A stretch of DNA of 64,000 nucleotides from Aurantibacillus circumpalustris (GTDB lineage Bacteria > Bacteroidota > Bacteroidia > B-17B0 > Aurantibacillaceae): positions 4,278,001 to 4,342,000 of the forward strand of contig NZ_CP121197.1 in NCBI RefSeq assembly GCF_029625215.1, written 5' to 3'. Under the pieces are notes generated by a model. It was given only the letters and a program-made list of their open reading frames with translations. It was not told the DNA's origin and did not search any database. A program made the translations under genes and the position numbers. Each line of letters opens with the position of its first letter. Position 1 is the first letter of the stretch. Positions 2,996 to 45,861 of this stretch are shown here, piece after piece.

Positions 2996-3051
2996 TTTAG
3001 ATAATTTTTATCCTGCTTATGGCAGTGCACGTGTGAAAGTGTTTCACAAGA

Positions 3052-5063: not shown

Positions 5064-5065
5064 TG

Positions 5066-8612: not shown

Positions 8613-8798
8613 TTGTGAACCAAAACTTAGCAAGAGTTTGCAAATCTGAAAGATTCACTTGGGATAAGATTCTGGTCAAGTCCTGGGTTCAAAAAGATCA
8701 AATCTAATCCTATTGATTCTCTGGAAGTTTTCTTAACATTCTAATCATCTGAAATCATCCAAAAAGCTCAATGAATCCGGCCATCCCGGTACAACAAA

Positions 8799-8836
8799 GA
8801 AAAAGCGTTCTAATTATTAGAAAGCTTTTTTATTTT
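8799..8836. terminator. Bidirectional terminator between convergent genes
   Basis: The inverted repeat AAAAAGC...TTCTAA / TTAGAA...GCTTTTTT has A-rich and T-rich flanks on both sides. It can therefore terminate both the hydrolase transcript (plus) and the His-rich protein transcript (minus, stop at 8848). Confidence 0.75.
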
Positions 8837-8847
8837 AATCTTAAATT

Positions 8848-9414
8848 TTATTTTTTGCCCTTACCTCCACCGTGGCCTTCGCCATGATCACTACCATGAC
8901 CATGCTGTTTAGAGCCCTGCGATTTGCTTTGAGTGTTAGTACCGCCATGATTTTTGCTACCATGATCGTTGTTCGTTTTTCTATCCGAATGATTGTTCGA
9001 GGAATTGTTTTCATGATGGTTTCCCTTTCCAGGATTTTGACCATAGGTTTTTTGTGTGCCATGGCGATAACCTTTTGCATATTTACTTTTGTGTTGCTTA
9101 AAATGATCGTATGGACGGTCACCTCTGTAATCGCTCAGAACAACTTTATAACCACTATAAAGATCGTAATGCTGGTGACGCCCTGGTAAATGTGCTCTAT
9201 GAATCCATACGCCATCTCCAAAATATATAAACATAGACGATTGAACATCGTAATAAGCCTCAACGTCGGGTAAATAATAATAGCGAACCTCAGTGTATCC
9301 AACAGGACCCCATTGTGGTGGCGGCCCAATATTGACATTTACGGAAACCTGCGCCTTTGTTGCGTATCCTAAAAATAGGGCTATACCGATAATAATTAAT
9401 TTTACTGCTTTCAT
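8848..9414 (-). CDS. Exported protein with His/Gly/Asn-rich C-terminal tail
   Basis: 188 aa from the ATG at 9412-9414, which begins directly with a signal peptide (MKAVKLIIIGIALFLGYATKAQ). An upstream in-frame ATG at 9471 would precede this signal and falls inside the TGTAA element, so it is rejected. The mature part begins VSVNVNIGPPPQWGPVGY and has Tyr-rich segments (TEVRYYYLPDVEAYYDV, MFIYFGDGVWIH), a pattern seen in small uncharacterised Bacteroidota periplasmic proteins. From about residue 115 it is low complexity, rich in His, Asn, Lys, Ser and Gly, ending HGHGSDHGEGHGGGKGKK. The tail could bind divalent metals, but this is composition-based inference. Confidence 0.8.
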   Translation of the reverse strand: MKAVKLIIIGIALFLGYATKAQVSVNVNIGPPPQWGPVGYTEVRYYYLPDVEAYYDVQSSMFIYFGDGVWIHRAHLPGRHQHYDLYSGYKVVLSDYRGDRPYDHFKQHKSKYAKGYRHGTQKTYGQNPGKGNHHENNSSNNHSDRKTNNDHGSKNHGGTNTQSKSQGSKQHGHGSDHGEGHGGGKGKK

Positions 9415-9433
9415 TTTGTTTTTATGTTTGAAG

Positions 9434-9489
9434 CAAAGATTGGTTTGATTAATCAGTAAAGCATTACACAACGTTTCAAGTTACTTACA
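9434..9489 (-). promoter_or_regulatory. Double TGTAA element plus degenerate minus-7 core (site 4)
   Basis: TGTAA repeats on the minus strand at 9485-9489 and 9464-9468 (21 bp apart), then 26 nt, then AATCTTTG with TTTG at 9434-9437. Its sequence GTTGTGTAATG and the minus-7 are identical to those of site 1. It serves the gene starting at 9414. Confidence 0.5.
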
Positions 9490-9584
9490 TAATTACTTCA
9501 TTTGATCATTAAAAGATTGAAGCGGAAATTGAAATTGGAATCAGTAAAGAATTAGTCGATTCATCTTAAACACAATAGCAATGT

Positions 9585-12485
9585 TTAACGAATCAAGGAA
9601 ATATTTCCTTTTTTATTGAGAATTATTGAGTCGAATTGTTTTGCCTTTACCACATACACAAATACTCCCGCACCAAGAGGAGATCCTTTATAAATACCAT
9701 CCCAACAAAAACTAGGATCAGACGATTCATAAACAAGCTCTCCCCATTTATCGAAAATTAAAATATTAAACTCTCTCATGCAAAAACTCCAACCTTGTAA
9801 ACAAAATTGATCGTTATTACCATCTCCATTCGGAGTAAATGCATTTGGAAAAGAATAATCTGCATCCGTATCACAGGTGATTATCAATTTCACACAAGCA
9901 CTGTCTAAACAAGAATTTAACTCTGCTATAACACAGTACTTGATCGTTTCGGGCGGCGTGGCAATAGGATTGCTGCAATCTACACAGCTTAAATAGTTAG
10001 CTGGACTCCATGCATAGGTTGAACCACCACTTGCCTCCAGTGTAATGACTGTTCCTGGACTTATAGTTGCACTCGGAGTTAAGCTTAATACCGGCGCAGA
10101 AAGAATCTCAACAGTTGCCGCACTTAAAGCAGCTATGGTGCATCCGCTTGCAGCAAGCGAATAGTTTACAAGGTATGTGCCCGACTGTGCAGAGGCCATG
10201 TCAATTTCTCCGCTAACTTTATCAATCTGTAATTTAACCGAAGAATATACGCCGCCAGGATTAAAATTATTAGGGGTAACGGTAATCAGATTGTCGCTTT
10301 TTTCACATACAGGTGTTTTATATGAAAAATCAGTCGTAGGTGTTTTTGTTTGAACAGTAATTACAACAGAATCCATTCCTACACAAGTTTTCGCATCCAT
10401 GCCTTCCACCGTATAAGTAGTTGTAATTGTAGGCGTAATAGCAAGCGTAGTTTCACGCGAACCGCCTGTCCATTTGTAATCCACTGCTCCGCCCACAGTA
10501 AGTGTTACAGCAGTACCTGGGCAAACTGTTCTGTTCGGACTCACTAGAAGATCAGGTTGTTTTATACGCACGGTTATGGTTTTTTTCACAACACAACCAT
10601 TTGTGTTACCCCAAAGCGTGTAAGTAGTATTGGCCGATTGCACAGGATAAATTGTTGCATTCGTTTGATTTGTGCTCCATGAATAAGTGTTTGCGCCTGA
10701 AGCAATTAATTTTATTTGATACCCAGGACAAAGTGTGGTATCACCTTTTATAGTCAGCGTTGGTGTTGTATAAACATTAATTGTTTGAATGGATTTATAC
10801 GGACAAGCATTCGTATCCAAACCAACAACGGTGTAACTTGTGAGCGAAGATGGATTTACTGTAATCGAATTTGAAACTGATCCTGTGCTCCAGGAATACG
10901 TTTGTGCAACTGGCGCTGATAGTACAATTGGGTTTCCACTACACACGTTAAAGCCCGCAGAACTTAATAATGGCAATACGCCAATTTTCACTTCTTGTTT
11001 CAAAGTATCTGTATTAACACCCCCACAAAAATTATTATAGGTATAGACAAGACTTATTGTGTATGTTCCCTGTCCAGGATAAATGTGCACTGGATTACTT
11101 AAAGTTGAAGTATTGAGAGCCGCAGAAGTTGGATCTCCGAAAAACCATTTAAAACTGGTGATGTTATAACCCGTGCTTGTACATCCTGTAACAGTAGTTG
11201 TTGGCGGAGAAGGCGCAGTGAAATTTACCTCGTTGCAATTAACAGATCCGTTAACAGAATAAACAAAAGGAAGCTGCGGAGTCTCTGAAATAAAATTAGG
11301 TAAACCGTAAGAGCAAAATGCTGGTGCAATGGATTGCCCGTCGGCCACATAGTTACAAGCCGCGCCAGGAAGATTAGGACTAAGTATTACGCCAAGCATT
11401 TGTTTACCCGGACGTGCCACATATATTTTTCCATCCTTTGCAAGTTGTAACGCAGAAATTTTAAAAGCAGAGATGTGATACCTCGAGTTACTGATAGCTG
11501 TGTTTGATCCTGCACAAAGATCCCATTGATAGATGACTGAATCAACTGCGCCAGAACCATAAAACTTGCTTCCGTCAGGAGAAAATTCACATCCGTAAGG
11601 AAAACATACTAATGGACTTGGCACCAATTTAGGGGGCGGTGGCGGAGTTTGACTACTGCTTACCGGCTGCGCAGGAAAAGTGAGTGGTATGCTTAACGAT
11701 AATTGATTTGAAACAAGTCCTGTTGCATTATCAAAATCATAGATTTCAAAATTTCCAACGGGAGCGTTGCTATAATAAACACCACACGCCAATCGCTTTC
11801 CATTTTGCGATATTTTTGCGGAGCCATAAGATTGAAAACTTGTATTCCACTGAGATCCAATTGGAGAAAGAGTGGCGGAACTACTCACTCCTGTTGAAGT
11901 TACTAATACCGAGCGAAAAACACTGCTATTATAATCGTGCGTTACAACCCAAGTATCTATTCCATTACAATGCTTTGTACCTGTCAGTTTCTCGCACATG
12001 GGTGCATTTATAAGAACATTTTTTGTAGTTACTGAACCCATTCCTGCCGCAAGATTCATATCCACAGTAGAATAACAAAAACTAGACGAACTACCTGATT
12101 TACCAAGTGTAAAAACAAAATAAATATTAGCCGCACCTGGTCGTTTTACAATCAATGCAGATTGCGTGGTAAGCACATTACCAAACAAACCAGTTCCGTT
12201 AGCCATTATCTGATCCAACTTATTCCATATAGTAACACCATCGGTGTAAAATAATAAATTTCCAAAAGCGTCGGCAACACTCGCCGTTCCTTCTTTGTAA
12301 CCAGACATTGAACTGGAAGTAATTTGCGTAACAGGATTATTTGTAAAATCTAGTCCAGCAGCAGATCCGAAGTACCATTTTTTATCTTGATTTTGCGAAA
12401 AAAAATTGTTTGAAACAAATAGTAAACATGCCAGACATATAAAGCCAGAGAATCTTGTCGTAATGGTATTTAAATATTTGAGCAC
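9585..12485 (-). CDS. Large secreted protein with PKD and Ig-like modules and a T9SS type B (gliding-type) tail
   Basis: 966 aa. The signal peptide (about 1-31) is followed by a region of about 390 residues that begins KWYFGSAAGLDF and is closely related to the protein at 19283-21373. It contains repeated blade-like segments (ASVADAFGNLLFYTDG, GNGKRLACGVY-like, YGCEFSPDGSKFYGSG) that suggest a beta-propeller. Next come a PKD-like domain (about 440-510, FKWFFGDP) and three or four repeats of the form L-x-x-G-A-x-x-Y-x-W-S...T-Y-T-V. The C-terminus (FPNAFTPNGDGNNDQF to the end) is the gliding-motility-associated type B sorting domain, which normally sends proteins to the cell surface. The role is unknown; adhesion is plausible. 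Confidence 0.85.
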   Translation of the reverse strand: MLKYLNTITTRFSGFICLACLLFVSNNFFSQNQDKKWYFGSAAGLDFTNNPVTQITSSSMSGYKEGTASVADAFGNLLFYTDGVTIWNKLDQIMANGTGLFGNVLTTQSALIVKRPGAANIYFVFTLGKSGSSSSFCYSTVDMNLAAGMGSVTTKNVLINAPMCEKLTGTKHCNGIDTWVVTHDYNSSVFRSVLVTSTGVSSSATLSPIGSQWNTSFQSYGSAKISQNGKRLACGVYYSNAPVGNFEIYDFDNATGLVSNQLSLSIPLTFPAQPVSSSQTPPPPPKLVPSPLVCFPYGCEFSPDGSKFYGSGAVDSVIYQWDLCAGSNTAISNSRYHISAFKISALQLAKDGKIYVARPGKQMLGVILSPNLPGAACNYVADGQSIAPAFCSYGLPNFISETPQLPFVYSVNGSVNCNEVNFTAPSPPTTTVTGCTSTGYNITSFKWFFGDPTSAALNTSTLSNPVHIYPGQGTYTISLVYTYNNFCGGVNTDTLKQEVKIGVLPLLSSAGFNVCSGNPIVLSAPVAQTYSWSTGSVSNSITVNPSSLTSYTVVGLDTNACPYKSIQTINVYTTPTLTIKGDTTLCPGYQIKLIASGANTYSWSTNQTNATIYPVQSANTTYTLWGNTNGCVVKKTITVRIKQPDLLVSPNRTVCPGTAVTLTVGGAVDYKWTGGSRETTLAITPTITTTYTVEGMDAKTCVGMDSVVITVQTKTPTTDFSYKTPVCEKSDNLITVTPNNFNPGGVYSSVKLQIDKVSGEIDMASAQSGTYLVNYSLAASGCTIAALSAATVEILSAPVLSLTPSATISPGTVITLEASGGSTYAWSPANYLSCVDCSNPIATPPETIKYCVIAELNSCLDSACVKLIITCDTDADYSFPNAFTPNGDGNNDQFCLQGWSFCMREFNILIFDKWGELVYESSDPSFCWDGIYKGSPLGAGVFVYVVKAKQFDSIILNKKGNISLIR

Positions 12486-12531
12486 GTAACTATATTATTC
12501 ATTATAAGTTAATGTTGGAGATTTTAGTGAG

Positions 12532-12539
12532 CAAAGATA
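12532..12539 (-). promoter_or_regulatory. Minus-7 element of the 966-aa protein gene
   Basis: Reads TATCTTTG on the minus strand, an exact TAnnTTTG match, about 46 nt upstream of the start at 12485. No good minus-33 TTG is present at the usual distance. Confidence 0.45.
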
Positions 12540-12822
12540 GGGCTAATTTGGAAGATATGAAAGGTGATTCGCTGCTATTTATTTTTCTACTTATCATAGA
12601 GATGCTTACCTACAGGTTAAAATGCTGATAAATTTCTTGGTACTTTTTTTGTTAAGAGATTCCTTTAAATCTTACTTCAAAAATAAAATAATTTGAATAG
12701 CAATGGCTGCCGCGTGGTTCAAGTTTATAATTTCATAAATTATTGATCATGAAATCAAATTTATCTCAATACTTAAATTGTTAATTTTAACTAAAGAATA
12801 TTATCCTTGTTAAAACATCCTT

Positions 12823-12830
12823 TACTTTTG
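12823..12830 (+). promoter_or_regulatory. Minus-7 element ahead of the efflux operon
   Basis: TACTTTTG matches TAnnTTTG exactly, 20 nt before the ATG at 12851. A TTG at 12807 is too close to be a standard minus-33, so an activator may be needed. Confidence 0.45.
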
Positions 12831-12850
12831 ATCTCTGAAATTATTAGTCC

Positions 12851-13246
12851 ATGTTAACAAACTTAAAAATAAATTCTGCTATCGTCATTTGCGTGGCATT
12901 TATCTTTAGAGTTTTATTTGTTAATATTGGTATTATTTCTTCCCTTAGCGCACAACAAAACAAAGGTGCAATAAAATCTCACTTCTCAAGCACAATGAAA
13001 AGAAGAAAAATTGTTGAGACTACAGCCAATCCAATAACAGCTGAAAACTCTCCAATGGAACTTTGTGAAGGAGAGTCAAATGAAGAAAATCAATTAAAGT
13101 CAACACCTCTAGTTCTCATTCAAATTCTTTACTCCTTTTTTAGTAATAACCTTAAAACGGGACTTGAAAAAACATATTCTTTTTTCGCGTATTCAACTTT
13201 TTCCTCTTCGCCTCGCTTTATTGCCTTTCAGGTATTCAGAGTCTGA
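12851..13246 (+). CDS. Small membrane-associated protein at the head of the RND efflux operon
   Basis: 131 aa with an N-terminal hydrophobic segment (about 10-33) ending LSAQQ, which could be a signal peptide or anchor. A polar middle follows, then a C-terminal aromatic, Phe-rich stretch. I do not recognise the family. Support for it being real: it begins 20 nt after an exact minus-7 element, runs in the same direction as the efflux genes, and similar short unnamed frames often precede efflux operons in Bacteroidota (from memory, not verified). The gap of 140 nt to the adaptor gene leaves room for a second promoter. It may alternatively be a fortuitous frame in the leader. Confidence 0.5.
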   Translation: MLTNLKINSAIVICVAFIFRVLFVNIGIISSLSAQQNKGAIKSHFSSTMKRRKIVETTANPITAENSPMELCEGESNEENQLKSTPLVLIQILYSFFSNNLKTGLEKTYSFFAYSTFSSSPRFIAFQVFRV

Positions 13247-13386
13247 TTTAAATTTTCTTTTTAGTAATAGAAATGGCTGGCATTCGCCTAGCATTTTATT
13301 TACTAGTGGTTATTAGCTTTTGCTAAAACCTCGCGCTTATTTCTAAGCGGATCAATAAAATCACAATTAAAAAATCAAAAAAAACT

Positions 13387-14469
13387 ATGAGGAAAATTCT
13401 CATTTTAGCGAGTGTATGTACATCGCTACTTTACACAAGTTGCAGTTCAAAAAAAGAAGAAAAGGAAGAAGAAACCAGATTCCTGGTAACTAGCCCCTTA
13501 AAAAAAGACACCTTAATCACTAGGAATTATGTCTGTCAAATCCACTCCATTCAGCACATTGAGATGCGCGCTTTAGAAAAAGGTTATCTGGAAAAAATAT
13601 TTGTAGACGAAGGTCAAGTTGTAAAAAAAGGTCAAATGATGTTTCAAATCATGCCGATGATTTATCAGGCCGAACTACAGAAGGCGCAAGCAGAAGCGGA
13701 CTTTGCTCAGATAGAATATTTAAATACAAAAAAACTCGCCGATAGCGAAGTAGTATCTCCCAATGAATTAGCATTAGCCAAAGCTAAATTAGATAGAGCA
13801 AAAGCAGAAGTATCGCTTGCACAGGTTCACTTAGGATTTACTGAGATTAGAGCGCCATTTGATGGTATCATGGATCATTTTCAAGTAAGGCTGGGAAGTC
13901 TTGTTAATGAAGGTGACTTACTTACCACACTTTCTGATAACAGTGACATGTGGGTTTATTTTAATGTTCCGGAGGCGGAGTATTTAGATTATAAAACAAA
14001 TGCCAAAGAAGAAAATTTAATTAAAGTAAATCTTTTAATGGCAAACAATCAACAGTTCGACTATTCTGGTGTAGTAAAAACAATTGAAGCCGACTTCAAT
14101 AATGAAACAGGCAACATCGCTTTTAGAGCAACATTTCCTAACCCTAAGGCACTTCTCAGACATGGTGAAACAGGAAATATTCAAATGACAATTCCTATTA
14201 AAAAAGCAATTCTTATTCCGCAAAAAGCTACCTACGAAATTTTAGAAAAGAGATTTGTGTATGTTGTAGATAAAGAAAATGTAGTTCACTCAAGAGAAAT
14301 TACTATCGCCTCAGAAATGCCAGATCTCTACGTTGTTAAGTCTGGACTGGCCGAAAACGAAAGAATACTTCTGGAAGGAATCCGTAAAGTAAAAGACAAG
14401 GACAAGATTACTTACGAGTATGAAAATCCTCAAACAGTATTTCCAAAACTGCAAGTGTACGTTGAATAA
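13387..14469 (+). CDS. RND efflux periplasmic adaptor (membrane fusion protein), AcrA family lipoprotein
   Basis: 360 aa. The lipoprotein signal has a lipobox ending SC (about Cys19), giving CSSKKEEKEEE. The family order is intact: a first biotinyl-lipoyl half (EKGYLEKIFVDEGQVVKKGQ), a short alpha-hairpin (about 95-140, AELQKAQAEADFAQ...LAKAKLDRAKAE), the second lipoyl half (GFTEIRAPFDGIMD), then the beta-barrel and membrane-proximal domains. It links the inner-membrane pump encoded 23 nt downstream to the outer-membrane channel. In Gram-negatives this set exports drugs, detergents or bile-salt-like compounds; the substrate here is not predictable. Confidence 0.93.
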   Translation: MRKILILASVCTSLLYTSCSSKKEEKEEETRFLVTSPLKKDTLITRNYVCQIHSIQHIEMRALEKGYLEKIFVDEGQVVKKGQMMFQIMPMIYQAELQKAQAEADFAQIEYLNTKKLADSEVVSPNELALAKAKLDRAKAEVSLAQVHLGFTEIRAPFDGIMDHFQVRLGSLVNEGDLLTTLSDNSDMWVYFNVPEAEYLDYKTNAKEENLIKVNLLMANNQQFDYSGVVKTIEADFNNETGNIAFRATFPNPKALLRHGETGNIQMTIPIKKAILIPQKATYEILEKRFVYVVDKENVVHSREITIASEMPDLYVVKSGLAENERILLEGIRKVKDKDKITYEYENPQTVFPKLQVYVE

Positions 14470-14492
14470 ACCAATAATTTAAAAAAAAGAAA

Positions 14493-17400
14493 ATGTTTAA
14501 TAAATTTATTCAAAGACCAGTACTCGCAATAGTAATATCACTTGTTATTTTATTTATTGGTACACTGGCAATTAAAACACTTCCTACTTCCCAATTTCCT
14601 GAAGTAGCTCCACCCATGGTAATGGTAAGCGCTTCTTACCCTGGAGCAAGTGCAAAATCTCTCGCGGAATCTGTAATCATTCCTTTAGAACAAGCTATTA
14701 ATGGAGCTTGGGGAATGCGTTACATGACCTCCGATGCAACCAGTGCCGGGGAAGCAAATATTCAAGTAATATTTAACCCGGGGACCGACATTAATCAAGC
14801 ATTAGTGCAAGTTTCTAATCGCGTTCAACAGGTAACAAATCGTTTACCAACTTTGGTACAAAGGGAAGGTGTGATTATTACTCCTGTTATTCCAAGTATG
14901 CTCATGTATGTAAATCTTTACAGTAAGGATAAAGATGCCAACATGAAATTCTTGTTTAACTACGCAGGTGTTAACATGGTGCCTGAACTACAACGTATCA
15001 ATGGCATTGGACAAGTTAGAATTTTAGGAAGTCGCCAATACGCTATGCGTGTTTGGTTAAACCCTGATCGTATGAGGGCTTACAAGGTTTCACCAGATGA
15101 AGTAATGGAAGCACTCAGTGATCAAAGTATTATTGGTAAACCCGGACGTATTGGTAGAGGTGATAGCAAACAAGCAGAAGCGCTTGAGTATGTTTTAGCA
15201 TACACCGATCGTTTTAATGATCCAACACAATATGAAAATGTAATTATCCGATCTAATCCGAACGGCGAAAACCTTCGACTCAAAGATGTAGCAACAGTTT
15301 CATTAGGTAGTGAATATTATGATATTTATTCGAGCATGAACGGACATCCATCTGCGGCAATGGTTATTAAACAAACCTATGGAAGTAATGCCAGTGAGGT
15401 GATTGAGAAAGTAAAAGAAAAATTAGATGAACTAAAAAAAACATTTCCTCCAGGAATGGATTATGAAATTAGTTACGACGTTTCTAATTTCTTAGATGCT
15501 TCTATTGAAAATGTGTTACATACATTAAGAGATGCATTTATTTTAGTTGCCTTGGTAGTATTTGTTTTCCTGGGCGATTGGCGCTCTACCCTGATTCCAA
15601 CATTAGCGGTTCCAATATCCTTAGTAGGCGCCTTTTTTGTGATGCAAATTTTCGGACTCACTATCAACATGATTACTTTATTTGCTCTTGTACTTGCGAT
15701 CGGAATTGTTGTCGATGATGCTATTGTCGTCGTCGAGGCTGTGCATGCGAAAATGGAAGAAGAACATCTTTCTCCTTATAATGCCGTACGAAAAGTAATT
15801 GGAGAAATTAGTGGTGCCGTAATTGCCATCACCCTACTCATGGTATCAGTATTTGTTCCTGTATCATTTATGACTGGACCTGTTGGTACATTTTATAGAC
15901 AATTTTCTATCACCATGGCCGCAGCAATTGTGCTTTCAGGTGTTGTCGCGCTCACTGTAACGCCAGTGCTTTGTGCCATGATTTTAAAAAACAATCATGG
16001 TAAACCAAAAAAGAAAACCTGGATGAATCGCTTTCTCGACAGCTTCAACAGAGGCTTTGAAAAACTAACTGGAAAATATGTTTGGCTTCTACGCTTAATT
16101 GCTCATCGCAAACTAGTCACGGTAGGCTTATTCGCCATATTTTCGCTTGGAATTTTTGTTATTAGTAATAATCTTCCATCAGGATTTATTCCTAGCGAAG
16201 ATCAGGGAATGCTGTATGCCATTATTCAAACTCCTCCTGGTTCAACTTTAGAAAGAACCAATGATCTTTCCAATAAATTAGTAGAGCTTATTAAAGATGT
16301 TGATGGAATAAAATCCGTGTCCTCTATTGCAGGATACGAAGTGTTAACAGAAGGAAGGGGATCTAATGCTGGAACTTGTTTAATTAATTTAAAACCTTGG
16401 TCGGAAAGAAAACACACGGTGACTGAAATCATTCTTGAGCTTGAAGAAAAAGCGAAAGAAATTCCAGGTGCAACCGTTGAGTTTTTTGATCCACCGGCTG
16501 TACCTGGCTTTGGAGCTGCTGGTGGTTTCGCCTTACAACTTTTAGATAAAACCAATGGTGGTGATTACAATTTGCTAGAAAAAGTAAAAAACGATTTTAT
16601 GCACGAGTTGGGTAAGCGCAAGGAATTAACGGGCTTGTTTACTTTTTTCAGTGCGAATTATCCCCAATACGAAATTGAAATCGATAATCAAGCTGCGATG
16701 CAAAAAGGAGTGACCATTGGTAACGCCATGAATACTCTTTCCATTTTTGTTGGAAGTACCTATGAACTTGGTTTTATTAAATACCAGCGTTTCTTTAAAG
16801 TGTTTGTTCAGGCAGCCCCTGAATTCAGAAGACTTCCATCGGATGTGATGAACCTTTATGTAAAAAATGATCGCGGTGAAATGGTTCCGTTTTCTGCTTT
16901 CATGAAAATTAAAAAGAAGCAAGGTGCAAATGAAATTAACCGTTACAACATGTACAACACGGCTGCAATCAGAGGTGGGCCAGCTAAAGGATACAGTAGC
17001 GGTGAAGCAATCAAAGCTGTTCAAGAAGTAGCCGAAGCAACATTACCACATGGATTTGATATAGATTGGGCAGCTCTTTCCTATGATGAAACCAGAAGAG
17101 GAAACGAAGCTATTTATATTTTTATCATCGTTTTAGTATTTGTGTATTTTGTTTTAGCAGCACAATACGAAAGTTTTATCATTCCTTTAGCAGTCGTATT
17201 CTCCTTACCTGCGGGTATTTTTGGGTCGTTTCTCTTCATCAAAGGTTTGGGTTTAGCAAATGATATTTATGCACAAGTCGGCTTAGTGATGCTCGTCGGG
17301 TTGTTGGGTAAAAACGCAGTTTTAATTGTAGAATTTGCTGTGCAGAAACAGCGACAAGGCGCCAGCGTAATCGATGCAGCGATAGAAGGTGCAAAGGTTC

Positions 17401-35933: not shown

Positions 35934-37091
35934 GTGAAAAATAAACGTCTTAAATTATTTATTCTTGGTCCCGCCTACCCTCTTCGTGGTGGACCCGCGC
36001 AATTTAATGAAAACCTTTGTGCTGAATTAAATAAAGAGGGACACGATGCACAGATTATTTCTTATTCTTTGCAGTATCCTAACTTTTTATTTCCAGGCTC
36101 CAGCCAGTTTGAAACAAGCGGTTCAGCACCTACAGGAATTAAAATACATACGTTAATCAATACGGTTAATCCTTTTAACTGGATTAAAGTTGCATCCTTT
36201 ATTAAAAAAGAAAAACCTGATTTTATCCTTATACGTTATTGGTTGCCGTTCTTCGGACCCAGTCTCGGCGCAATTGCACGACTGGTAAGATCAAAAACAA
36301 AAGTACTCGCGCTCACCGATAATATTATTCCTCACGAAAAAAGAATTGGTGATAAGGCATTCACCAACTATTTTGTAAACAGTTGCCATGGTTTTATTGC
36401 AATGAGTAAAACTGTTTTGAATGATATTTCTAAATTTTCAAAAACAGAAAAAAAAGCCTATTCGCCGCACCCTATGTACGAAACGTACGGACCAATTGTT
36501 AGCAAAAAAGAGGCGCGTGAAAAATTACAACTAAATCAAGACGATAAAATAATTTTATTTTTCGGGTTGATTCGTCATTATAAAGGATTGGATATTCTTA
36601 TAGAAGCAATGACTGATCCCGAAATAAAAAAACTAAACATTAAGCTTTTAATTGCCGGTGAGTTTTACGAAGATAAACAACCATACCTGGATTTAATTGA
36701 AAAATTTGAATTGAAAAATCATGTTTTACTTCATGATAAGTTTATTGCTAACGAAGATGTGAGATATTATTTCTGCGCTTCTAATCTTGTTGCGCAAACT
36801 TATAGAAAAGCGACCAATAGTGGCGTAACGATGGTTGGTTATTATTATGAAAAACCAATGCTAGTCACAAATGTAGGTGGTTTGGCTGAGATTGTTCCAA
36901 ACAATAGTTGTGGTTATGTAGTTGAAAATTCGGTGCCTGTTATTTCTGAAAAAATTAAAGAGTATTTTCTGAAAGAAAAAGAAAATGAGTTTACCCAAAA
37001 TGTAATTCTTGAAAAGAAAAAATACGAATGGAAAGAGTTTATTCGTGTTTTGACTGGTTTGTTTGAGAGTACAAAAAAAAATATCCAATAA
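35934..37091 (+). CDS. Glycosyltransferase family 4 (GT-B fold)
   Basis: 385 aa starting at GTG (35934); no in-frame ATG precedes the N-terminal beta strand LKLFILGPAYPLRGGPAQFNENL. The GT-B features are visible: an N-terminal donor-independent lobe with the glycine-rich loop, the second lobe starting at KIILFFGLIRHYKGLDILIEAM, and a late Y-x-x-P-x-L-V-T-x-V-G-G-L-A-E-I-V segment with an E that contacts the nucleotide sugar. It likely adds a sugar in lipopolysaccharide, capsule or glycolipid assembly, but no polysaccharide cluster surrounds it. It reads toward the palindromic repeat array, which may terminate it. Confidence 0.88.
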   Translation: MKNKRLKLFILGPAYPLRGGPAQFNENLCAELNKEGHDAQIISYSLQYPNFLFPGSSQFETSGSAPTGIKIHTLINTVNPFNWIKVASFIKKEKPDFILIRYWLPFFGPSLGAIARLVRSKTKVLALTDNIIPHEKRIGDKAFTNYFVNSCHGFIAMSKTVLNDISKFSKTEKKAYSPHPMYETYGPIVSKKEAREKLQLNQDDKIILFFGLIRHYKGLDILIEAMTDPEIKKLNIKLLIAGEFYEDKQPYLDLIEKFELKNHVLLHDKFIANEDVRYYFCASNLVAQTYRKATNSGVTMVGYYYEKPMLVTNVGGLAEIVPNNSCGYVVENSVPVISEKIKEYFLKEKENEFTQNVILEKKKYEWKEFIRVLTGLFESTKKNIQ

Positions 37092-37105
37092 GCATACTGC
37101 GTTTT

Positions 37106-37619
37106 AACCACAGAGTATCACAGTGTTTCGCACAGAGTATCGCTGAGGATTTTGAATTTCATTTAGTGTTCTAATTACCTTAGTGGTTCTTTTTCTAATC
37201 ACAGACTATCACATTGTTTTGCGCAGAGTATCATAGAGGTTTGAATTTCACTTAGTGCTTCTTAGTGTTCTCAGTGCCTTAGTGGTTCTATTTTAACCAC
37301 AGACTATCACAGTGTTTTGCGCAGAGTATCATAGAGGTTCGAATTTCACTTAGTGCTTCTTAGTGTTCTCAGTGCCTTAGTGGTTCTATTTTAACCACAG
37401 ACTATCACAGTGTTTTGCGCAGAGTATCATAGAGGTTTGAATTTCACTTAGTGCTTCTTAGTGTTCTCAGTGCCTTAGTGGTTCTATTTTAACCACAGAC
37501 TATCACAGTGTTTTGCGCAGAGTATCATAGAGGATTTTGAATTTTCCTTAGTGTTTCTTGGTGTTCTTAGTGCCTTAGTGGTTCTATTTTAATCACAGAG
37601 TATCACAGTGCTTTGCGTA
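37106..37619. repeat. Array of six roughly 98-bp palindromic repeats
   Basis: Units begin with AACCACAG or AATCACAG at 37106, 37197, 37295, 37393, 37491 and 37591, so periods are 91, 98, 98, 98 and 100 bp. The third to fifth copies are nearly identical; the outer ones are more diverged and the sixth is truncated. Each full unit begins AACCACAG and ends CTTAGTGGTT, so it is an imperfect inverted repeat able to fold as a long hairpin. The array has no open reading frame and lies between convergent genes. It is not a CRISPR: there are no unique spacers. Confidence 0.9.
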
Positions 37620-37675
37620 GAGTAGAAAACAGTTTTGATTTTTCTTATTGTTTCCTTTTGATTCCTGCTCTTTTT

Positions 37676-37768
37676 AACCACAAAGGCCACAAAGTGTTTC
37701 ACAAAAGGTCACAAAGGATTTTGAATTTTCTTTGTGTCCTTCGTGTCTACTTGGTGCTCTTTGTGGTT
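37676..37768. repeat. Diverged palindromic unit with strong hairpin arms
   Basis: Begins AACCACAAAGGCCAC and ends GTGCTCTTTGTGGTT; the arms pair almost completely over the first 19 nt and partly beyond. It is related to the neighbouring array but replaces the CAGAG/TATCAC words with CAAAG/CACAAAG. It sits 20 nt from the stop of the SMC gene and is the likely transcript end for the condensin operon. Confidence 0.75.
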
Positions 37769-37788
37769 CCTGCCTCTTTAGGCACAGA

Positions 37789-40700
37789 TTAAGCCTCAAC
37801 TTCCGTTACAATACTTGGGAAAATTCTTACGTTATTATTCTCTTCTCTTCTAAACTGATAAGTGTATTTATAATGACTTTCTAAACCAGATTTATTTGGA
37901 AGTCCATTAATCATCATAATGTTTCTGTTTTTAGCGAAACGTAATAATTCACGTAAATAATGCGCCGAAATTTGACCTACCTCATCAATAATACAATGCA
38001 CTTTAAAGTCTGAACTACTTCTATGCGAAGATTCTTTAATAAATACATGTAATAAAGTAATGTAGATAATTGCTTTTACAAGAATATCTGTTCCGGTACT
38101 TCCAATGCTATCAATTTTATGCGTCCAGCCGGTTTCATTCATACCTTCTTTAATATTGAACTTCAATTCAAATAAATCTTGTAAACGAATTTCCTCTTGC
38201 TCTTGTTCTTTTATAGCATTACGTAATTGCTCAAGCAATTTCACTGCACGTCCGCTAATCTCACGTTTTTGGCCAGTTGCGAAGTCTGTATTAAATAAAC
38301 CTTCGTTGTATACCAATCCATTTTCTTCACGGAACTCCTGAATACGTTTTAATAAACGGTAAACTTTGTTGTCTGATTCTTCTAAACGAATTTTAATAAA
38401 CTCAATCAACTTACTTTCTTCAAACTCAGCTTTCTTAAAGTCCTCGGCAATTAAACCAATAATGTGTTGAATTTTATCTTTTTGTCCACTAAGCTCTTTT
38501 ACTTTAGTTGCAATACTATCGGTCACTAAACCAATTTGTGTTGCGGTTTCGGCAATCGATAATTCAATTTTATTTTCATTAATAAACGAACGTAAATTTT
38601 GCGCAAAACGCTCATACTCTCCTTGAGTAGCATCGTTACGGATCGCAAAATTAAAGTGATTGTCTATTCTGAATTTTCCAGCAAATTCATTTACATAACG
38701 TTGAAATGCACCATACTCTTCATTGAAGTGAGAATCATTTTTTAATAACTGTGTACACAAATCCATAATGTGGTAATTGGTACGTTTCGATTCCGCCCGT
38801 TCAATAATCTCTGCATACTTCGTATAAACAGGTGTTTCACGGAAGTTATTGCTATAAAAATTAATACCGTTATTAAAATCAATCAATTCTTCATCAAAAG
38901 CACGTTTTTGTTTATTGAGCTCCATTCGTTTCATATTAAACTTACGGGTAGCATCATCCAATTGTGCTGCTAAATCATTGTTACTTTTTACGTACTCTTC
39001 TTTCTTTTGAATTAAATCTGGCAAACGATCAAAAGTCTCACGTTTATCCTTTAAATAATCACTTATTATTTGAGCGTATTGTTCTATTTCTTTCAAGGCT
39101 TCTTGCAATTCTTTCATGCGGCTTTCTACACCTTTTAATTGTTTTGCATCAACTCCTTTACTTTTAAAATTGCTATCCTTTTCTTTAGACAACTCTTCTT
39201 CTTTACTTTCGAATTCTTTAACTTGATTTTTCTTTTCAACTTCTAGTTCCGAAATTTCAACTTCCTGTCTTTGTTTTAATTCTGCGAGACGTTCTTCATT
39301 AAACGCCTTTAATTTATCGAATTGTTTAGTGAAATCTTCAACCATCAAATTTTTCTTCTTGGTTAAGATGGCTAATTCCTCTTCAATAATATTTAAACGT
39401 TGGCGGTTTCCAGTCAAAGACTCTTCAACCTCTTTGCCGGCACGACTGTTCCAGTCTTCCAACTCATGACCTAGTTTTTGTTCTCTTTTTTCAGCAAGTT
39501 CTAAAGAATAGGTAAGCACTTTAACATCTTCTTTTAATTCACCTAATTGTTTACCAAATTTATCGGCAGCTAACATTTTTTCTTCTGTGTTTGCTGTTTG
39601 AAATTGGTTTAAGGAATCTTCGAGGTCTTTAATTTGTGCTAAACGTTCATTTTTTTCAAACTGATATTCTTCAATAGATTTAGAAACCAATTCAACAGGT
39701 TCTAAATTTAAACTGATACCGTACAATGTGTTAGCAGTTTCCTCTTTCATTTCAGGAGAGATATCGGTACGGAATAACAATTTTTCGTTTACAACCTTGC
39801 CAATCGTTTGATGCCAGTTCTTTACATTTTTTTCAAGATAACCATAAAACGCATCGTGCTGTACATTTAATTTTCCTTCAATATCCTTAATCTCATTTTT
39901 AATTTTTATGATTTCATTATTGATTTGATTAACACGATTGCTTAAAGAGGTTTTTAATTTTGTCTCCAAGGCTTCCCACTCACGTTGTATGGTTAACACC
40001 ATGTTTTGTTTAATAGCGCGCTCACTTTTGTTTTTATAATTTACAGCACGAAGTTCTGCTAATTCGTTTTCAAGATTTTTAATTTCTTGCTCATAAAAAC
40101 GCGTGGTACGAATAACTTTTTCTTCACTTTTTAATTCGTTAAACTCAATTTGTTTTGCTGTTACTTCAGAATTAACTTCATTAAATGATTCTTCGCGTTT
40201 GTGTTTTAACTCTGCATCACGCTTATTAAATTCGTTCTTCTGTAATAATTGTAATTCGTTATAGTGATTAAATATTTCACCAGTACGCGAATTTATTTTG
40301 TTAATGTAAGCACTCTTATCATTACGTAATTGCTCTATCAGAGAAGAATACTTTAATTCAATACTCGCAACATTTGATGTTAAACTATCGTATTCTCGAC
40401 GAGCAATGTTTAATTCAACTTGTAATTTTTCACGGTCTGCATTTTTTCCAACCGCCTCATCAATATTTTTTTCTTTGTACTCTTTTAATTTTTTATTGGC
40501 ATCACGAATTGTACGATCGTAATAACCAATTTCTTCTCTGAAATCATTTTGTTTGCCTTCAATACCATCTTTAAGTTCTTCATGCTCTGTTGTAAGTTTT
40601 TCAAGTTCTTCTTCCTTCTTTTTTGAAGCATCACGAATAGCTTCGTTTTGAGATTCCGCAAAACGCAAACTACTTCCAAGCTTGTCTGCCATTTCCATCT

Positions 40701-41472
40701 GTGCGCCTTTCAACATATGAACCTGATCGTATTTTTTATCGATCATTTCAATTAACTGCTGTGATTCTTTTTTCAAATAAATTTCTATATCAGAATATTT
40801 CTCATTGAATTGGCGTAACTGGCGTTCAACCTGCTCTAACTTAATACTGCTGCTTTCTGTTGTTAATGAATTAGCAATAAAATCTTTAATAAAACGAGAG
40901 TCAACACTACTTTTAGAAGATAAAAATACGTTGGTAATAGATTTCGGAATGTTTTGATATTTTTCGTTTCCTTTTAATAAATGAAATTTTGAGAGTTGCT
41001 TATCCGTTTCAGTTCCAAAAATAATATTTCTGTAACGTTCAAACGTATCAATTTGATTAGAAATATAAACGCCTCTTTTTTCAAGATTTGCTATAATCTC
41101 TTTAATCTTCATGGCTTCATTATTAGCCGTAAAGAAAAAATCAGGATTATAAGGCGCATCAACAAAACGAAATACTAATTTATTGTGGCGGTAAACAATA
41201 ACAAAAAAAGCACTGTCTTCGGTAGTAATTTCATAAACGAGGTAAGAATTTTCGTAACGGAAATAATGCTCTTCAAATGGTTTTTGTGAAGCAGAAATAC
41301 CTAATCCACGACTGTTAGCACTATAAAAGAATAAAATAGCACGCTGTAACGAGGTTTTACCAAAATTATTGGTACCCACAAAACAGGTGTTTCCACTCAG
41401 TTCAATATCCGCATATTTTACATTGGAGATATTTATTTCAACAATTCTATTTAATATTCTACAGTTTTCCAT
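37789..41472 (-). CDS. SMC-like condensin ATPase, MukB/MksB/JetC type
   Basis: 1227 aa. Residues about 1-200 are an ATPase head half with Walker A GTNNFGKTS (about 33-41). Two long coiled-coil arms (about 230-560 and 640-930, heptad-rich with many Glu/Lys) flank a compact hinge-like segment (WHQTIGKVVNEKLLFRTD ... LYGISLNLEP). The C-terminal half-head has a signature-like GSTGTDILVKAIIYI and Walker B HCIIDEVGQIS. There is no CxxC zinc hook, so it is not Rad50/SbcC. It should form a loop-extruding or DNA-trapping complex with the kleisin and MukE-like proteins encoded upstream in the order kleisin, MukE, SMC. This is the order of MksFEB and Wadjet JetABC. Chromosome organisation and plasmid exclusion are both possible roles. 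Confidence 0.85.
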   Translation of the reverse strand: MENCRILNRIVEINISNVKYADIELSGNTCFVGTNNFGKTSLQRAILFFYSANSRGLGISASQKPFEEHYFRYENSYLVYEITTEDSAFFVIVYRHNKLVFRFVDAPYNPDFFFTANNEAMKIKEIIANLEKRGVYISNQIDTFERYRNIIFGTETDKQLSKFHLLKGNEKYQNIPKSITNVFLSSKSSVDSRFIKDFIANSLTTESSSIKLEQVERQLRQFNEKYSDIEIYLKKESQQLIEMIDKKYDQVHMLKGAQMEMADKLGSSLRFAESQNEAIRDASKKKEEELEKLTTEHEELKDGIEGKQNDFREEIGYYDRTIRDANKKLKEYKEKNIDEAVGKNADREKLQVELNIARREYDSLTSNVASIELKYSSLIEQLRNDKSAYINKINSRTGEIFNHYNELQLLQKNEFNKRDAELKHKREESFNEVNSEVTAKQIEFNELKSEEKVIRTTRFYEQEIKNLENELAELRAVNYKNKSERAIKQNMVLTIQREWEALETKLKTSLSNRVNQINNEIIKIKNEIKDIEGKLNVQHDAFYGYLEKNVKNWHQTIGKVVNEKLLFRTDISPEMKEETANTLYGISLNLEPVELVSKSIEEYQFEKNERLAQIKDLEDSLNQFQTANTEEKMLAADKFGKQLGELKEDVKVLTYSLELAEKREQKLGHELEDWNSRAGKEVEESLTGNRQRLNIIEEELAILTKKKNLMVEDFTKQFDKLKAFNEERLAELKQRQEVEISELEVEKKNQVKEFESKEEELSKEKDSNFKSKGVDAKQLKGVESRMKELQEALKEIEQYAQIISDYLKDKRETFDRLPDLIQKKEEYVKSNNDLAAQLDDATRKFNMKRMELNKQKRAFDEELIDFNNGINFYSNNFRETPVYTKYAEIIERAESKRTNYHIMDLCTQLLKNDSHFNEEYGAFQRYVNEFAGKFRIDNHFNFAIRNDATQGEYERFAQNLRSFINENKIELSIAETATQIGLVTDSIATKVKELSGQKDKIQHIIGLIAEDFKKAEFEESKLIEFIKIRLEESDNKVYRLLKRIQEFREENGLVYNEGLFNTDFATGQKREISGRAVKLLEQLRNAIKEQEQEEIRLQDLFELKFNIKEGMNETGWTHKIDSIGSTGTDILVKAIIYITLLHVFIKESSHRSSSDFKVHCIIDEVGQISAHYLRELLRFAKNRNIMMINGLPNKSGLESHYKYTYQFRREENNNVRIFPSIVTEVEA

Positions 41473-41520
41473 TCTTAATTTTCTAATTCTTACTTATTTC
41501 TAAACTCCAAAATTTTTATT

Positions 41521-42126
41521 CTAATTATAAATCAATCCTTGCGCCGTATCGTTATCGCCCGTTTCGTCATATATAGCTACTGAATTAATCACATCCAATA
41601 AATAATTATAGGAGTCCATTACCTTATATGACTCCGTTTTCTCATCTTCTAATTCCAAATACGAATCACGACTCATTAAATCGCAAATCTCGCGCACCTT
41701 GTTGTGCAATGTTTCAGAACGGTATAAAGGAATTTTTTGTAATTTTTGTTTTAAACGTACATTGGCATTACACTCTTCAGCAATTTCTCCTGGTCTAAAA
41801 CGGCTACCAATAGTAATTTTATTATCCATACTGGCAAACAGATCAATAATATCAATGTATCTTTCAAAACGTTCTAACTTTTTTTCTAGCTCAGAATTTG
41901 GTTCATTCAATTTTGAAAAATAAAAAAAGTTATTTCCACGCTCAATATTGTAACGTATCACATTAAAATACGCCTGAAGTCTGTCAAAATTATCTGGATT
42001 ATTAATGATGTCGTATAAACGATTCATTCCGTCTCTCGTTCCATTACTGGAAATAAAATTTCCACGCGCCATTACCGAAAATATTTCGTGTGTTTGTTTT
42101 GGTAAGTTGAAGTCTTCTGCTAGCAT
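41521..42126 (-). CDS. MukE/MksE/JetB-like condensin accessory protein
   Basis: 201 aa. It is predicted as winged-helix units: helices in QTHEIFSVMARGNFISS, MNRLYDIINNPDNFDRLQAYFNVI and YIDIIDLFASMD, with a beta-wing-like NNFFYFSKLNEP. Length, position between the kleisin and SMC genes (48 nt from the SMC gene) and the helix/wing pattern match MksE/JetB (about 200-220 aa). No single motif proves the family, so the call rests on context plus fold pattern. In the known complexes this subunit binds the kleisin and helps it bridge the SMC heads. Confidence 0.7.
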   Translation of the reverse strand: MLAEDFNLPKQTHEIFSVMARGNFISSNGTRDGMNRLYDIINNPDNFDRLQAYFNVIRYNIERGNNFFYFSKLNEPNSELEKKLERFERYIDIIDLFASMDNKITIGSRFRPGEIAEECNANVRLKQKLQKIPLYRSETLHNKVREICDLMSRDSYLELEDEKTESYKVMDSYNYLLDVINSVAIYDETGDNDTAQGLIYN

Positions 42127-42131
42127 TGTTT

Positions 42132-42181
42132 TATTTTAGTCGTTAGTCATTAGTTGATAGTCGTTGGTCAATAGTCGATAG
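42132..42181. repeat. Short degenerate repeat (TAGTC units)
   Basis: About 50 nt made of TAGTCGTTAGTC / ATTAGTTGATAGTC / GTTGGTCAATAGTC-like words. Runs of this kind are scattered in intergenic DNA of many Bacteroidota in my recollection. It lies inside the condensin operon, 6 nt upstream of the MukE-like gene start. Confidence 0.7.
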
Positions 42182-42352
42182 TCAATTTCCCGCTTTTTTT
42201 ATGTGTTCTTATATTTCTTATATGGTTCAATCTTATCTTCAATTGCCCGCTTCCCTTATGTTCCCTTATATTTCTTATGTGGTTCAATCTTATCGTCAAT
42301 TGTTTTGTTCGTCTAATATGACCTTATGTTTCCTATTTGGTTTAATTTATTC
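42182..42352. repeat. 57-bp tandem repeat, three copies, inside the condensin operon
   Basis: Copies start with TCAATT at 42182, 42239 and 42296, exactly 57 bp apart. The first two are nearly identical; the third has diverged and runs into the last codons of the kleisin gene. The block separates the kleisin and MukE-like genes. It has no start codon or conserved frame that would make it a gene on the operon strand. Confidence 0.85.
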
Positions 42353-43594
42353 CTTAACTTTCTCTTTTTTCTTTTTTTCTTTAGTCGCCAACGGTAAAAT
42401 TAACGTGTAACCCAGACGTTTTCTGTTTTTCTGGCTATCATCATAATCGTAATACTGTAAACGATATTTAAAATCTAAAGAATTTTGGTATTCCATTGCA
42501 ATCTCCACAAACAAAGAGAGTCTATCTTCAAATGTAACGTTGCCAATTGCTTTTGGAAATTTATAATTCATCAAATACTCAAATAAATTTTCTTTGGTTT
42601 GCACCAAAAAACGTTCTACTAATTTTTCTGTATCTAATTTTATTTGCTGTTCTAAACCTTTGTCCTTAAAATTACCTGCCATTCTATCAGCAAGGCCACG
42701 CACCATAAGACGCGTGAGTTTGTATTTTTCAGAAATACGTTTACATAAAACATGTCCATCATCTGTATACAAAAAGTCAATGGCTATTTTTGTTTTAGGA
42801 CTCTTGTGCCCATTATACCTTAATGAACTTACACTGGAAACAATTTCGTTGAAATTTGTTTTGAAGTGAAGCGTGCTGTGATCTTTGATTTCCTTAAGAC
42901 GCTGGGCTTTTTTGTAAACATCAATTTGAAATTGAATTTTATTGATGTAGTCTGTAATGTCTGTTTGAATTTCGATTAAGTAATCTAGATTTTCAATTAA
43001 ACTTACTTTTAGCGCTTGAACAATGCCATACAATTCTGAATCGTTTGTTAAAGCAAACAAATTGCGAGTTTCCTCCACAACATCGGTCGTACGTTTAATA
43101 AATTCTATGATTGTATCACGTTTTTCTCTATAATCTTCAAGCTTTTGAAGCTTAATACGGTAATTACTTTCGTTCTTGTAAGTATCGTCAACATTCTTTT
43201 GTAGCTTGATGATTTCTCGGGTAAGCGTAGCATTAATACGTTTTAAGTATTTTTTGATACTGCGTAAAAAGCGCATTTCACGTGCCTCTTGGTAGAAACG
43301 AATGTGACGTGTAAGCTCGTTGATGTAATCGTTTATGAAACCAGGTGTTACCTCGCCTATCTCCATGAAGTCCTCAAACATCGCCACTACAGCGTCATTC
43401 AGACTTACAATGTTTTCATACTCATAAACAAGATCAAGCGATTTTAATTTTTGTAATTGTTCGTGTGAAATATCTTCACGCCCCAACAATTCATTCACAG
43501 TGATATTCTCACGGTTCGCGAATAAGAACTCAACTACGTTTCGGTGTTGATAGAGCTGTGAAAGGATATCATTTACATTTACCTGTAATGCCAT
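42347..43594 (-). CDS. Kleisin-like condensin subunit, MukF/MksF/JetA type
   Basis: 415 aa. An N-terminal winged-helix region (about 5-75, ILSQLYQHRNVVEFLFANRENITVNELLG ... LVYEYENIVSLNDAVV) is followed by a helical bundle and coiled coil (about 80-250, with RFLRSIKKYLKRINATLTREIIKLQKNV). A C-terminal region of helices and strands ends in a very basic/acidic tail (KEKKKKEKVKE). This is the layout of MukF/MksF kleisins. It is first in the operon, followed by the MukE-like and SMC-like genes. A 57-bp tandem repeat lies directly behind its stop. The assignment depends on context and architecture rather than on a conserved motif. Confidence 0.7.
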   Translation of the reverse strand: MALQVNVNDILSQLYQHRNVVEFLFANRENITVNELLGREDISHEQLQKLKSLDLVYEYENIVSLNDAVVAMFEDFMEIGEVTPGFINDYINELTRHIRFYQEAREMRFLRSIKKYLKRINATLTREIIKLQKNVDDTYKNESNYRIKLQKLEDYREKRDTIIEFIKRTTDVVEETRNLFALTNDSELYGIVQALKVSLIENLDYLIEIQTDITDYINKIQFQIDVYKKAQRLKEIKDHSTLHFKTNFNEIVSSVSSLRYNGHKSPKTKIAIDFLYTDDGHVLCKRISEKYKLTRLMVRGLADRMAGNFKDKGLEQQIKLDTEKLVERFLVQTKENLFEYLMNYKFPKAIGNVTFEDRLSLFVEIAMEYQNSLDFKYRLQYYDYDDSQKNRKRLGYTLILPLATKEKKKKEKVKE

Positions 43595-43908: not shown

Positions 43909-44913
43909 ATGAAACACATCTCCTCTAAAAACATTCTTATCGCCTTTAGTTTTTTATTAATTTTTTCTTGTAAGAAAGAAGAAAAAAAAATCGATAACCC
44001 AGTTCCCGTTCCTGCTCCGACGCCAGATCCATACACCTACAATAACGAATTACAAAGTTCCAAAGACATTAGTTTTGCTACTTATGTAATTTCAGACCTT
44101 GATATGATCTGTGCCTATGCTTCGCAAGGTATTTCTGGCGACTATGAGGCAACTCCTTCTCAATCGTCTTCTACAACAACAATTGTAAGCGATACAATGG
44201 TTAAACAAATTGTCTACGCTTGTAATAATAGTCGATGTAAAGATGGTAGACTTCGCAACGGAGCTGCTTTTTTTTATTACGGCTACGATCCAACAAATAA
44301 TTATTGGGCTCAACCCAATGCAAACCACTATGAGTCATATGGGTTTTCAGCAAGCGTTTATTTAGATGATTTTAGAGTAAATGACTGGAAAGTGCAAATT
44401 TTTGATCCTTCACAACCTGCGCATATAAGAAACACTTTAGCAGGTGATTTATACAATCCGGCTCTAACGAACTTAACCTGGGAAATAAGTGGCAAGTTTC
44501 AATTCATCAATAACCTAGACCCTTCGCGAAATCTTGTTTGGGAAGGAGTGATTAAAAAGACACTGAAAAACACTAGTGATACTGCTGTATTTGCAAACAA
44601 AAAAGCAAAAGTAAAATGGCATCTTGCAAAACTAGATTACATCGGAAGCTTTAGCGGAATGCGCAGCTCTTCACAAACACTGTATACTTATAAAATAGAC
44701 TCAAATACGCCTTTATACCGTGACATGACTTGCTCATACGCACCACAAGGGGCTACGGATGTTACCGAATTCCACCCTTTTGTTTTTGGAAAAAGTGTAT
44801 TCACAATTGGTGATTATCATCCCCGTACAATTGATTATGGTCCTACCCTTAATTGCGACAACAAAGTAAATATCAGTTTTAAAGATGAATCGCATACAGA
44901 AGAATTAGATTAA
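43909..44913 (+). CDS. Lipoprotein of unknown function
   Basis: 334 aa. The signal has a lipobox ending FSC (about Cys21, then KKEEKK), followed by a Pro-rich linker (PVPVPAPTPDP). The mature part begins with an acidic/aromatic segment containing SDLDMICAYASQG. It has strand-rich stretches such as LTWEISGKFQFINN and KAKVKWHLAKLDYIGSF, and a late HPFVFGKSVFTIGDYHPRTIDYG. I do not recognise the family. It lies divergently from the condensin operon with its own promoter element, so a functional connection is not indicated. Confidence 0.72.
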   Translation: MKHISSKNILIAFSFLLIFSCKKEEKKIDNPVPVPAPTPDPYTYNNELQSSKDISFATYVISDLDMICAYASQGISGDYEATPSQSSSTTTIVSDTMVKQIVYACNNSRCKDGRLRNGAAFFYYGYDPTNNYWAQPNANHYESYGFSASVYLDDFRVNDWKVQIFDPSQPAHIRNTLAGDLYNPALTNLTWEISGKFQFINNLDPSRNLVWEGVIKKTLKNTSDTAVFANKKAKVKWHLAKLDYIGSFSGMRSSSQTLYTYKIDSNTPLYRDMTCSYAPQGATDVTEFHPFVFGKSVFTIGDYHPRTIDYGPTLNCDNKVNISFKDESHTEELD

Positions 44914-44994: not shown

Positions 44995-45861
44995 ATGAAA
45001 GAAACATTTAATTATAAATATGACGACTTGTTCAATCCAACATTGACAGCATTACAAAATCTTGGTGGCTCCGGTTCAGTTCCAGAAATCGAAGAACAAG
45101 TTGCGACAATTCTCAAACTGACAGACGAACAAATAAATGAAATCCATCGTGGTAACACGAGTAAGTTTACGTATCGACTTGCATGGGCACGAAATTATTT
45201 AAAGCGTTACGGACTTTTAGAAAATTCATCACGTGGTATTTGGGCGTTGACAGAGGAAGGCATCAAATCTAAATCCGTTGACAAAGAAGTAGTAAAACGC
45301 AAAGTTGTCGCCGAGGACAAGCAAGAAAGATTAATAAAGGAAAAAACAAAGACAACTGAAATCATCGAAGAACAAGAAGATGATGAAGAAATCCAAAAAT
45401 TCAGTTGGCAAGAACAAATAATTGAAGAACTACAAAGCATTTCTCCAAGCGCGTTCGAAAGACTTTGTCAAAGACTATTACGTGAGTTAGGTTTTCAAAA
45501 TGTTGAAGTAACAGGACAGACAAATGACGGTGGCATTGACGGTAAAGGTATGCTTAGACTTGGCGGAGTTCTTTCATTCCACGTAATATTTCAAGCAAAA
45601 CGTTACAAAGGCAGCGTTTCACCTTCTATAGTTCGCGACTTTAGAGGCGCAATGGTTGGTCGTGCAGACAAAGGACTTATAATAACAACTGGGACATTTA
45701 CTCGTGAAGCCAAGCGAGAAGCATCAAGAGACGGAGCGCCACCAATCGACTTAATGGACGGCAACGACCTTGCTGAAAAATTAAAAGAATTAAAACTTGG
45801 TATCGACATAGAACTAGTTGAAAAAGTAAACATTAAACGTGACTGGTTTAAGACATTGTAA
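44995..45861 (+). CDS. Mrr-type restriction endonuclease
   Basis: 288 aa. The N-terminal part (about 5-95) is a winged-helix Mrr_N-like domain (LTALQNLGGSGSVPEIEEQVATIL ... RGIWALTEEGI). An acidic/basic linker (about 100-130) follows, then the Mrr catalytic domain of the PD-(D/E)xK fold: FERLCQRLLRELGF, then GGIDGKG with the catalytic Asp and FQAKRYKG as the Q-x-K half of the active site, then IITTGTFTREAKREAS. Mrr enzymes cut methylated foreign DNA and need no partner methylase; none is present here. Its base composition looks richer in G+C than the neighbours by eye, which fits horizontal acquisition. It is 82 nt from the upstream lipoprotein gene. Confidence 0.9.
   Translation: MKETFNYKYDDLFNPTLTALQNLGGSGSVPEIEEQVATILKLTDEQINEIHRGNTSKFTYRLAWARNYLKRYGLLENSSRGIWALTEEGIKSKSVDKEVVKRKVVAEDKQERLIKEKTKTTEIIEEQEDDEEIQKFSWQEQIIEELQSISPSAFERLCQRLLRELGFQNVEVTGQTNDGGIDGKGMLRLGGVLSFHVIFQAKRYKGSVSPSIVRDFRGAMVGRADKGLIITTGTFTREAKREASRDGAPPIDLMDGNDLAEKLKELKLGIDIELVEKVNIKRDWFKTL

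Follow-up and report, generated by a model that had tools for sequence, protein, structure and literature searches.

A nuclease-free MksFEB operon as the probable housekeeping condensin of a Bacteroidota family without detectable Smc or ScpA

RESULTS

Three intact genes encode a kleisin, a KITE subunit, and an SMC-type ATPase

The locus lies in a 64,000-nucleotide stretch of the Aurantibacillus circumpalustris genome (here called the window) and comprises three consecutive genes, whose open reading frames (ORFs) were found exactly at the positions, on the strand, and with the lengths given in the original prediction (Table 1). A Pfam scan bore out the SMC-like character proposed for the longest product, with DUF3584 matching along its whole length (E = 3e-68, residues 21 to 1204); a sub-threshold match to AAA_15 was the sole other entry for MksB at E ≤ 1, and MukB (PF04310) was not listed. 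The protein described as MukE-like matched the Pfam family MksE (PF21980) at an E value of 5.5e-29, far over the cut-off. We also found that MksB contains the Walker A, signature-like, and Walker B motifs that had been noted in it and that, again as noted, it lacks the zinc-hook CxxC of Rad50/SbcC, its four cysteines being residues 4, 30, 906, and 1160. mksF and mksE are separated by 220 bp, which hold a head-to-tail duplication of 57 bp, the two copies of which are 84% alike.

Table 1. Positions of genes, motifs, and repeats at the mksFEB locus, numbered from the first nucleotide of the window
Feature	Position	Strand	Product or remark
mksB, SMC-type ATPase (DUF3584/MukB-like)	37789..41472	minus	1227 aa
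mksE, KITE subunit	41521..42126	minus	201 aa
mksF, kleisin	42347..43594	minus	415 aa
Walker A GTNNFGKTS	41350..41376	minus	MksB aa 33-41
Hinge-like apex between two long coiled-coil helices	39673..39852	minus	MksB about aa 541-600
ABC signature-like GSTGTD	38086..38103	minus	MksB aa 1124-1129
Walker B CIIDEVG	37975..37995	minus	MksB aa 1160-1166
98-bp direct repeat	37102..37733		six copies
57-bp duplication	42182..42295		
Lipoprotein-like ORF	43909..44913		334 aa
Stand-alone Mrr endonuclease	44995..45861		

No Pfam family reached its cut-off with MksF. An AlphaFold model of this protein, built from 24 relatives and with a pLDDT of 70, starts with a winged-helix-like N terminus, continues as a long helical bundle, and ends, after a linker of low confidence, in a C-terminal domain. 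Its best Foldseek matches were JetA and MukF kleisins, in agreement with the kleisin-like nature first suggested for it. All eleven of the best PDB matches were JetA, MukF, or MukEF/JetABC chains, headed by JetA 8q72_E (E = 6.3e-5) and including 8as8_E and MukF 9gm7_C, at a low overall TM and with the helical bundle by itself being a common fold; the model matches both MukF and JetA. A hinge-like center had been proposed for MksB, and a model of residues 471 to 700 shows, in the manner of an SMC arm with its hinge, two long helices (2 to 66 and 130 to 229 of the model, at high confidence) around a small apex with a pLDDT of only 50 to 68. Taken by itself, this fragment model was rejected as uninformative, since many coiled coils, SMC arms included, were found at similar Z. 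Sequence searches of the PDB returned no real relative, and the MksE profile matched a designed protein, 8g8i.

The operon is conserved in order and sequence

The order F-E-B, which had been likened to that of MksF-MksE-MksB, is kept together with the strand in all 62 loci that have the three genes, and the core MksFEB spans ten genera; in one genome (G047), over 90 kb of the same contig separates MksE from MksB. Twelve aligned MksB proteins had a mean column identity of 85%, and in these the signature-like and Walker B motifs, as well as residues G33, N35, N36, G38, K39, T40, and S41 of Walker A, are invariant. Among full-length MksB proteins of the family, STGTD and the Walker B DE motif are present in 61 of 61. 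At 13 related loci with proS nearby, MksB identity (86 to 92%) was always higher than that of ProRS (79 to 87%), and dN/dS was about 0.02 to 0.04 for close pairs with unsaturated dS. The missing nuclease (see below) could suggest that the operon is a decaying Wadjet remnant, but we regard this as extremely improbable for three intact ORFs with invariant catalytic motifs, strong purifying selection, and an order conserved across ten genera; the motif alignment and the dN/dS values contradict it.

The neighbors of MksFEB are often housekeeping genes, the commonest being a glycosyltransferase gene (29 loci), proS (16 loci), and a 239-aa ORF (16 loci). In the window, the orientation of mksFEB with respect to the glycosyltransferase/proS block is inverted (positions 35934 to 43594); the relatives have the glycosyltransferase gene upstream of mksF, both genes being on one strand. 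In 15 loci (L106 to L111, L113, L114, L116, L129, L130, L141, L147, L156, and L157), mksE and mksB are separated by a conserved gene of about 330 aa with an N-terminal signal-like sequence. This gene was considered as a general effector and rejected, having no family match and being absent from the other loci.

No JetD/MksG nuclease is found at the locus or elsewhere in the genome

The operon encodes no JetD/MksG Toprim nuclease of the kind found in Wadjet/MksBEFG operons. Its absence next to mksB had been part of the original prediction, and we found that it holds genome-wide, as JetD_C had no match in the genome, which is complete in a single contig of 4.6 Mb. Neither the JetD profile nor a short-JetD profile matched any ORF of the core loci. 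The nearest non-core relatives of the operon are themselves F-E-B operons, mostly with a JetD-like protein of 284 to 302 aa encoded after B, and the examples of this protein that were tested match DUF7281 and, weakly, JetD. When the short JetD of this sister clade was used in a direct protein search that covered 17 genomes with controls, the A. circumpalustris genome gave only noise (best E value, 0.13), and the control genomes G020 and G046 gave E values of 1e-178 or better. A DUF7281 profile run over 80 genomes was discarded because it says nothing, missing even the known copies.

The surroundings of the operon are as described earlier, with a convergent glycosyltransferase gene downstream and a divergent lipoprotein-like ORF and an Mrr endonuclease upstream. 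The Mrr protein matches Mrr_cat (4.7e-30) and Mrr_N (1.2e-21), and the lipoprotein-like ORF has no Pfam match. No relative of either was found at related loci, so the suggestion of an unrelated effector next door did not hold up; nor did that of a nuclease encoded elsewhere, given the searches above. The complex could in principle still serve in defense, as a JetD-less Wadjet system relying on a nuclease from another locus, be it the neighboring Mrr, which lies 1.4 kb from mksF, or another Toprim protein, and a defense role would suit a complex in whose sister clade mksB is mostly followed directly by the gene for a short JetD-like nuclease. We consider this unlikely: the genome has neither a JetD_C match nor a close short-JetD copy, with the controls positive, Mrr has no relative at related loci, and family-wide presence with conservation above that of ProRS is unlike a defense gene.

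The sequence between mksB and the glycosyltransferase gene had been described as hairpin repeats. We found direct repeats there instead (Table 1), and the unit that was tested folds no better than shuffled sequences (z = -0.07). The core motif of the 98-bp repeat has no other match in the window.

MksFEB occurs throughout the host family, in which Smc and ScpA are not detected

All 49 host-family genomes, that of A. circumpalustris included, contain MksE, MksB (in those in which MksE escaped detection), or at minimum fragments of these proteins; every named record found for the family is a metagenome assembly or an uncultivated record, and nearly all of the relatives are metagenome assemblies. 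The weakest case is G002, which has only a weak C-terminal fragment of MksB besides its Wadjet copy. In the same genomes, Pfam profiles, which a very divergent Smc could escape, detected the Smc hinge in 0 of 49 and ScpA in 0 of 49, and in the A. circumpalustris genome itself none of the three Smc-ScpAB families (SMC hinge PF06470, ScpA, and ScpB) was matched. Five other genomes of the class match all three families, which shows that the searches work. The single ScpB match in the 49 genomes is a 135-aa frame (G020:C7:130984-131325) in a genome that has neither the Smc hinge nor ScpA, and it is either a relic or contamination. The genome of A. circumpalustris also contains canonical parS sites, with a cluster of three parS-like palindromes, one of them exact, near an mnmG-like gene (G000:C1:952999-954347), a feature that we count in favor of a chromosomal role although Smc-ScpAB is not detected there.

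Across the class, the Smc hinge was found in 43 of 197 near-complete Bacteroidia genomes and had no match in the other 154, many of which also lack a detected Mks match. Thus, the absence of Smc alone does not require a replacement. JetD was found in 6 of the 49 host-family genomes. In all six it lies about 4.5 kb from an additional, divergent copy of MksE, and in none at the core locus, which indicates that true Wadjet is gained and lost whereas the core operon persists. No relative of MksFEB was found on viral contigs.

These distributions also bear on whether the complex restrains foreign circular DNA uncut, by compaction or silencing, perhaps besides work on the chromosome. Compaction or silencing of circular DNA has been proposed for eukaryotic Smc5/6, the operon is akin to JetABC, and loop extrusion can work on plasmids as well as on the chromosome. 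Nothing specific in the sequence points to such restraint, and the universality of the complex in a family without Smc fits a chromosomal role better, so that we judge restraint to be improbable.

Nuclease-free operons also occur within the sister clade

In a phylogeny of the concatenated F, E, and B proteins, the core family forms one clade, split from the sister systems with full bootstrap support. The sister systems of the DUF7281 type (L079, L185, L186, L187, L189, L192, L196, L200, and L201) share gene order and sizes with the core operon, with MksE about 37% identical in L079, but differ from it in the JetD-like protein after B, in a WYL regulator in some of them, and in their scattered distribution. 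The nuclease is absent from four loci within the sister clade, namely L188, L195 of Parabacteroides distasonis, and L197 and L199 of Persicobacter. L188 adjoins thiamine genes and is, with full support, the sister of a nuclease-bearing Phocaeicola system; its simplest reading is nuclease loss. Loss is likely for the core family as well, where it is unproven because the outgroup is distant, and the sister clade does not polarize loss versus gain at the core node with certainty.

L195 lies near rplU, pepT, and gcvT. The P. distasonis record that holds it and L202 (NZ_OY725754.1) is labeled a plasmid and carries rplU, uvrB, gap, miaA, prmA, and pepT, genes that make it look like a circularized chromosome fragment. 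Among operons on plasmid records, only the P. distasonis locus and the two Persicobacter loci are nuclease-less. The Bacteroides and Phocaeicola operons on such records were considered as the missing Bacteroides condensin, a reading rejected for the two Phocaeicola systems, both of which carry a short JetD; the sequence from B. finegoldii breaks off within mksB.

Two further arrangements were seen among the relatives. In L079 (positions 7584 to 17126) and L080, the F-E-B genes are accompanied by genes for a WYL regulator, a short JetD-like protein, an RNase_H_2-family exonuclease, and an XseA-like protein, possibly a Wadjet variant with extra exonucleases. In L071 (positions 648 to 11696), an F-E-B-like operon with a MukB N-terminal match (E = 1.4e-6) is followed by genes for a weakly JetD3-like protein, a 593-aa protein without a match, and an SMC-like protein of 1039 aa that matches an ABC-3C middle component.

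DISCUSSION

The identification of the operon as encoding an MksFEB/JetABC-type complex without JetD/MksG proved right. Among the functional options that had been left open, that of a housekeeping condensin is now strongly favored, and those of a nuclease encoded elsewhere and of an unrelated effector next door found no support. Judging from sequence, we think it highly probable that MksFEB is the housekeeping condensin of the host family and does the job of Smc-ScpAB, because this SMC complex is universal and evolves slowly in a lineage where neither Smc nor ScpA is detected. Its extreme conservation, its frequent housekeeping context, and its absence from viral contigs also favor this role.

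By analogy with the families to which the subunits belong, two MksB proteins would dimerize at the hinge, and the MksF kleisin would bridge their ATPase heads and carry dimers of the KITE subunit MksE. Cycles of ATP binding and hydrolysis would then extrude chromosomal DNA into loops, which would help to compact and separate sister chromosomes, and an extruder without JetD would be unable to cut. The assembly of the complex, its loop extrusion, and its role in segregation are all predictions from these families. The complex may descend from a plasmid-defense complex through loss of the nuclease. We propose, tentatively and at slightly less than even odds, that a defense SMC complex was domesticated into the family's only condensin after it lost its nuclease and that versions without a nuclease emerged on several occasions within Bacteroidota (in the host family, in genome G168, in Parabacteroides distasonis, and in Persicobacter).

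How SMC complexes pass between chromosome care and plasmid defense is an open question (PMC10586767). The host family offers a large and clearly defined case, with an Mks-type complex throughout, no detectable Smc or ScpA, no nuclease, and a sister clade that mostly bears one, and conversion from defense to chromosome work could be tested with purified complexes to which a single gene product is added or from which it is withheld. In Bacteroides, alignment of the chromosome arms has been reported and no condensin identified (PMC10197239). In Parabacteroides, the candidate genes are an "ATP-binding protein" gene and two hypothetical genes.

Among known systems, MksBEF of Pseudomonas aeruginosa likewise combines a MukB-like SMC protein, a kleisin, and a KITE subunit without a nuclease. 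It has a part in chromosome organization and segregation (PMC10586767, PMC7485682) and likely arose by loss of JetD (PMC10586767). However, P. aeruginosa also has Smc-ScpAB, whereas in the host family Smc hinge and ScpA are undetected and MksFEB is universal. A point against a chromosomal role is that MksBEFG of Corynebacterium glutamicum does not act on the chromosome (PMC7083940), but that system has kept its nuclease. Wadjet (JetABCD/MksBEFG) shares the same three subunits, and the MksF model is closest to JetA and MukF, but the complex described here differs from Wadjet in that its locus lacks JetD/MksG, none being detected elsewhere in the genome either, and in that it is family-wide rather than sporadic. 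In enterobacteria, MukBEF replaced Smc-ScpAB, a second precedent beside P. aeruginosa MksBEF. The host-family complex differs from enterobacterial MukBEF in having no MukB Pfam match, in belonging to a different lineage, and in its F-E-B order with a 1227-aa SMC protein, and resembles it as a putative KITE condensin that stands in place of Smc-ScpAB and has a MukF-like kleisin.
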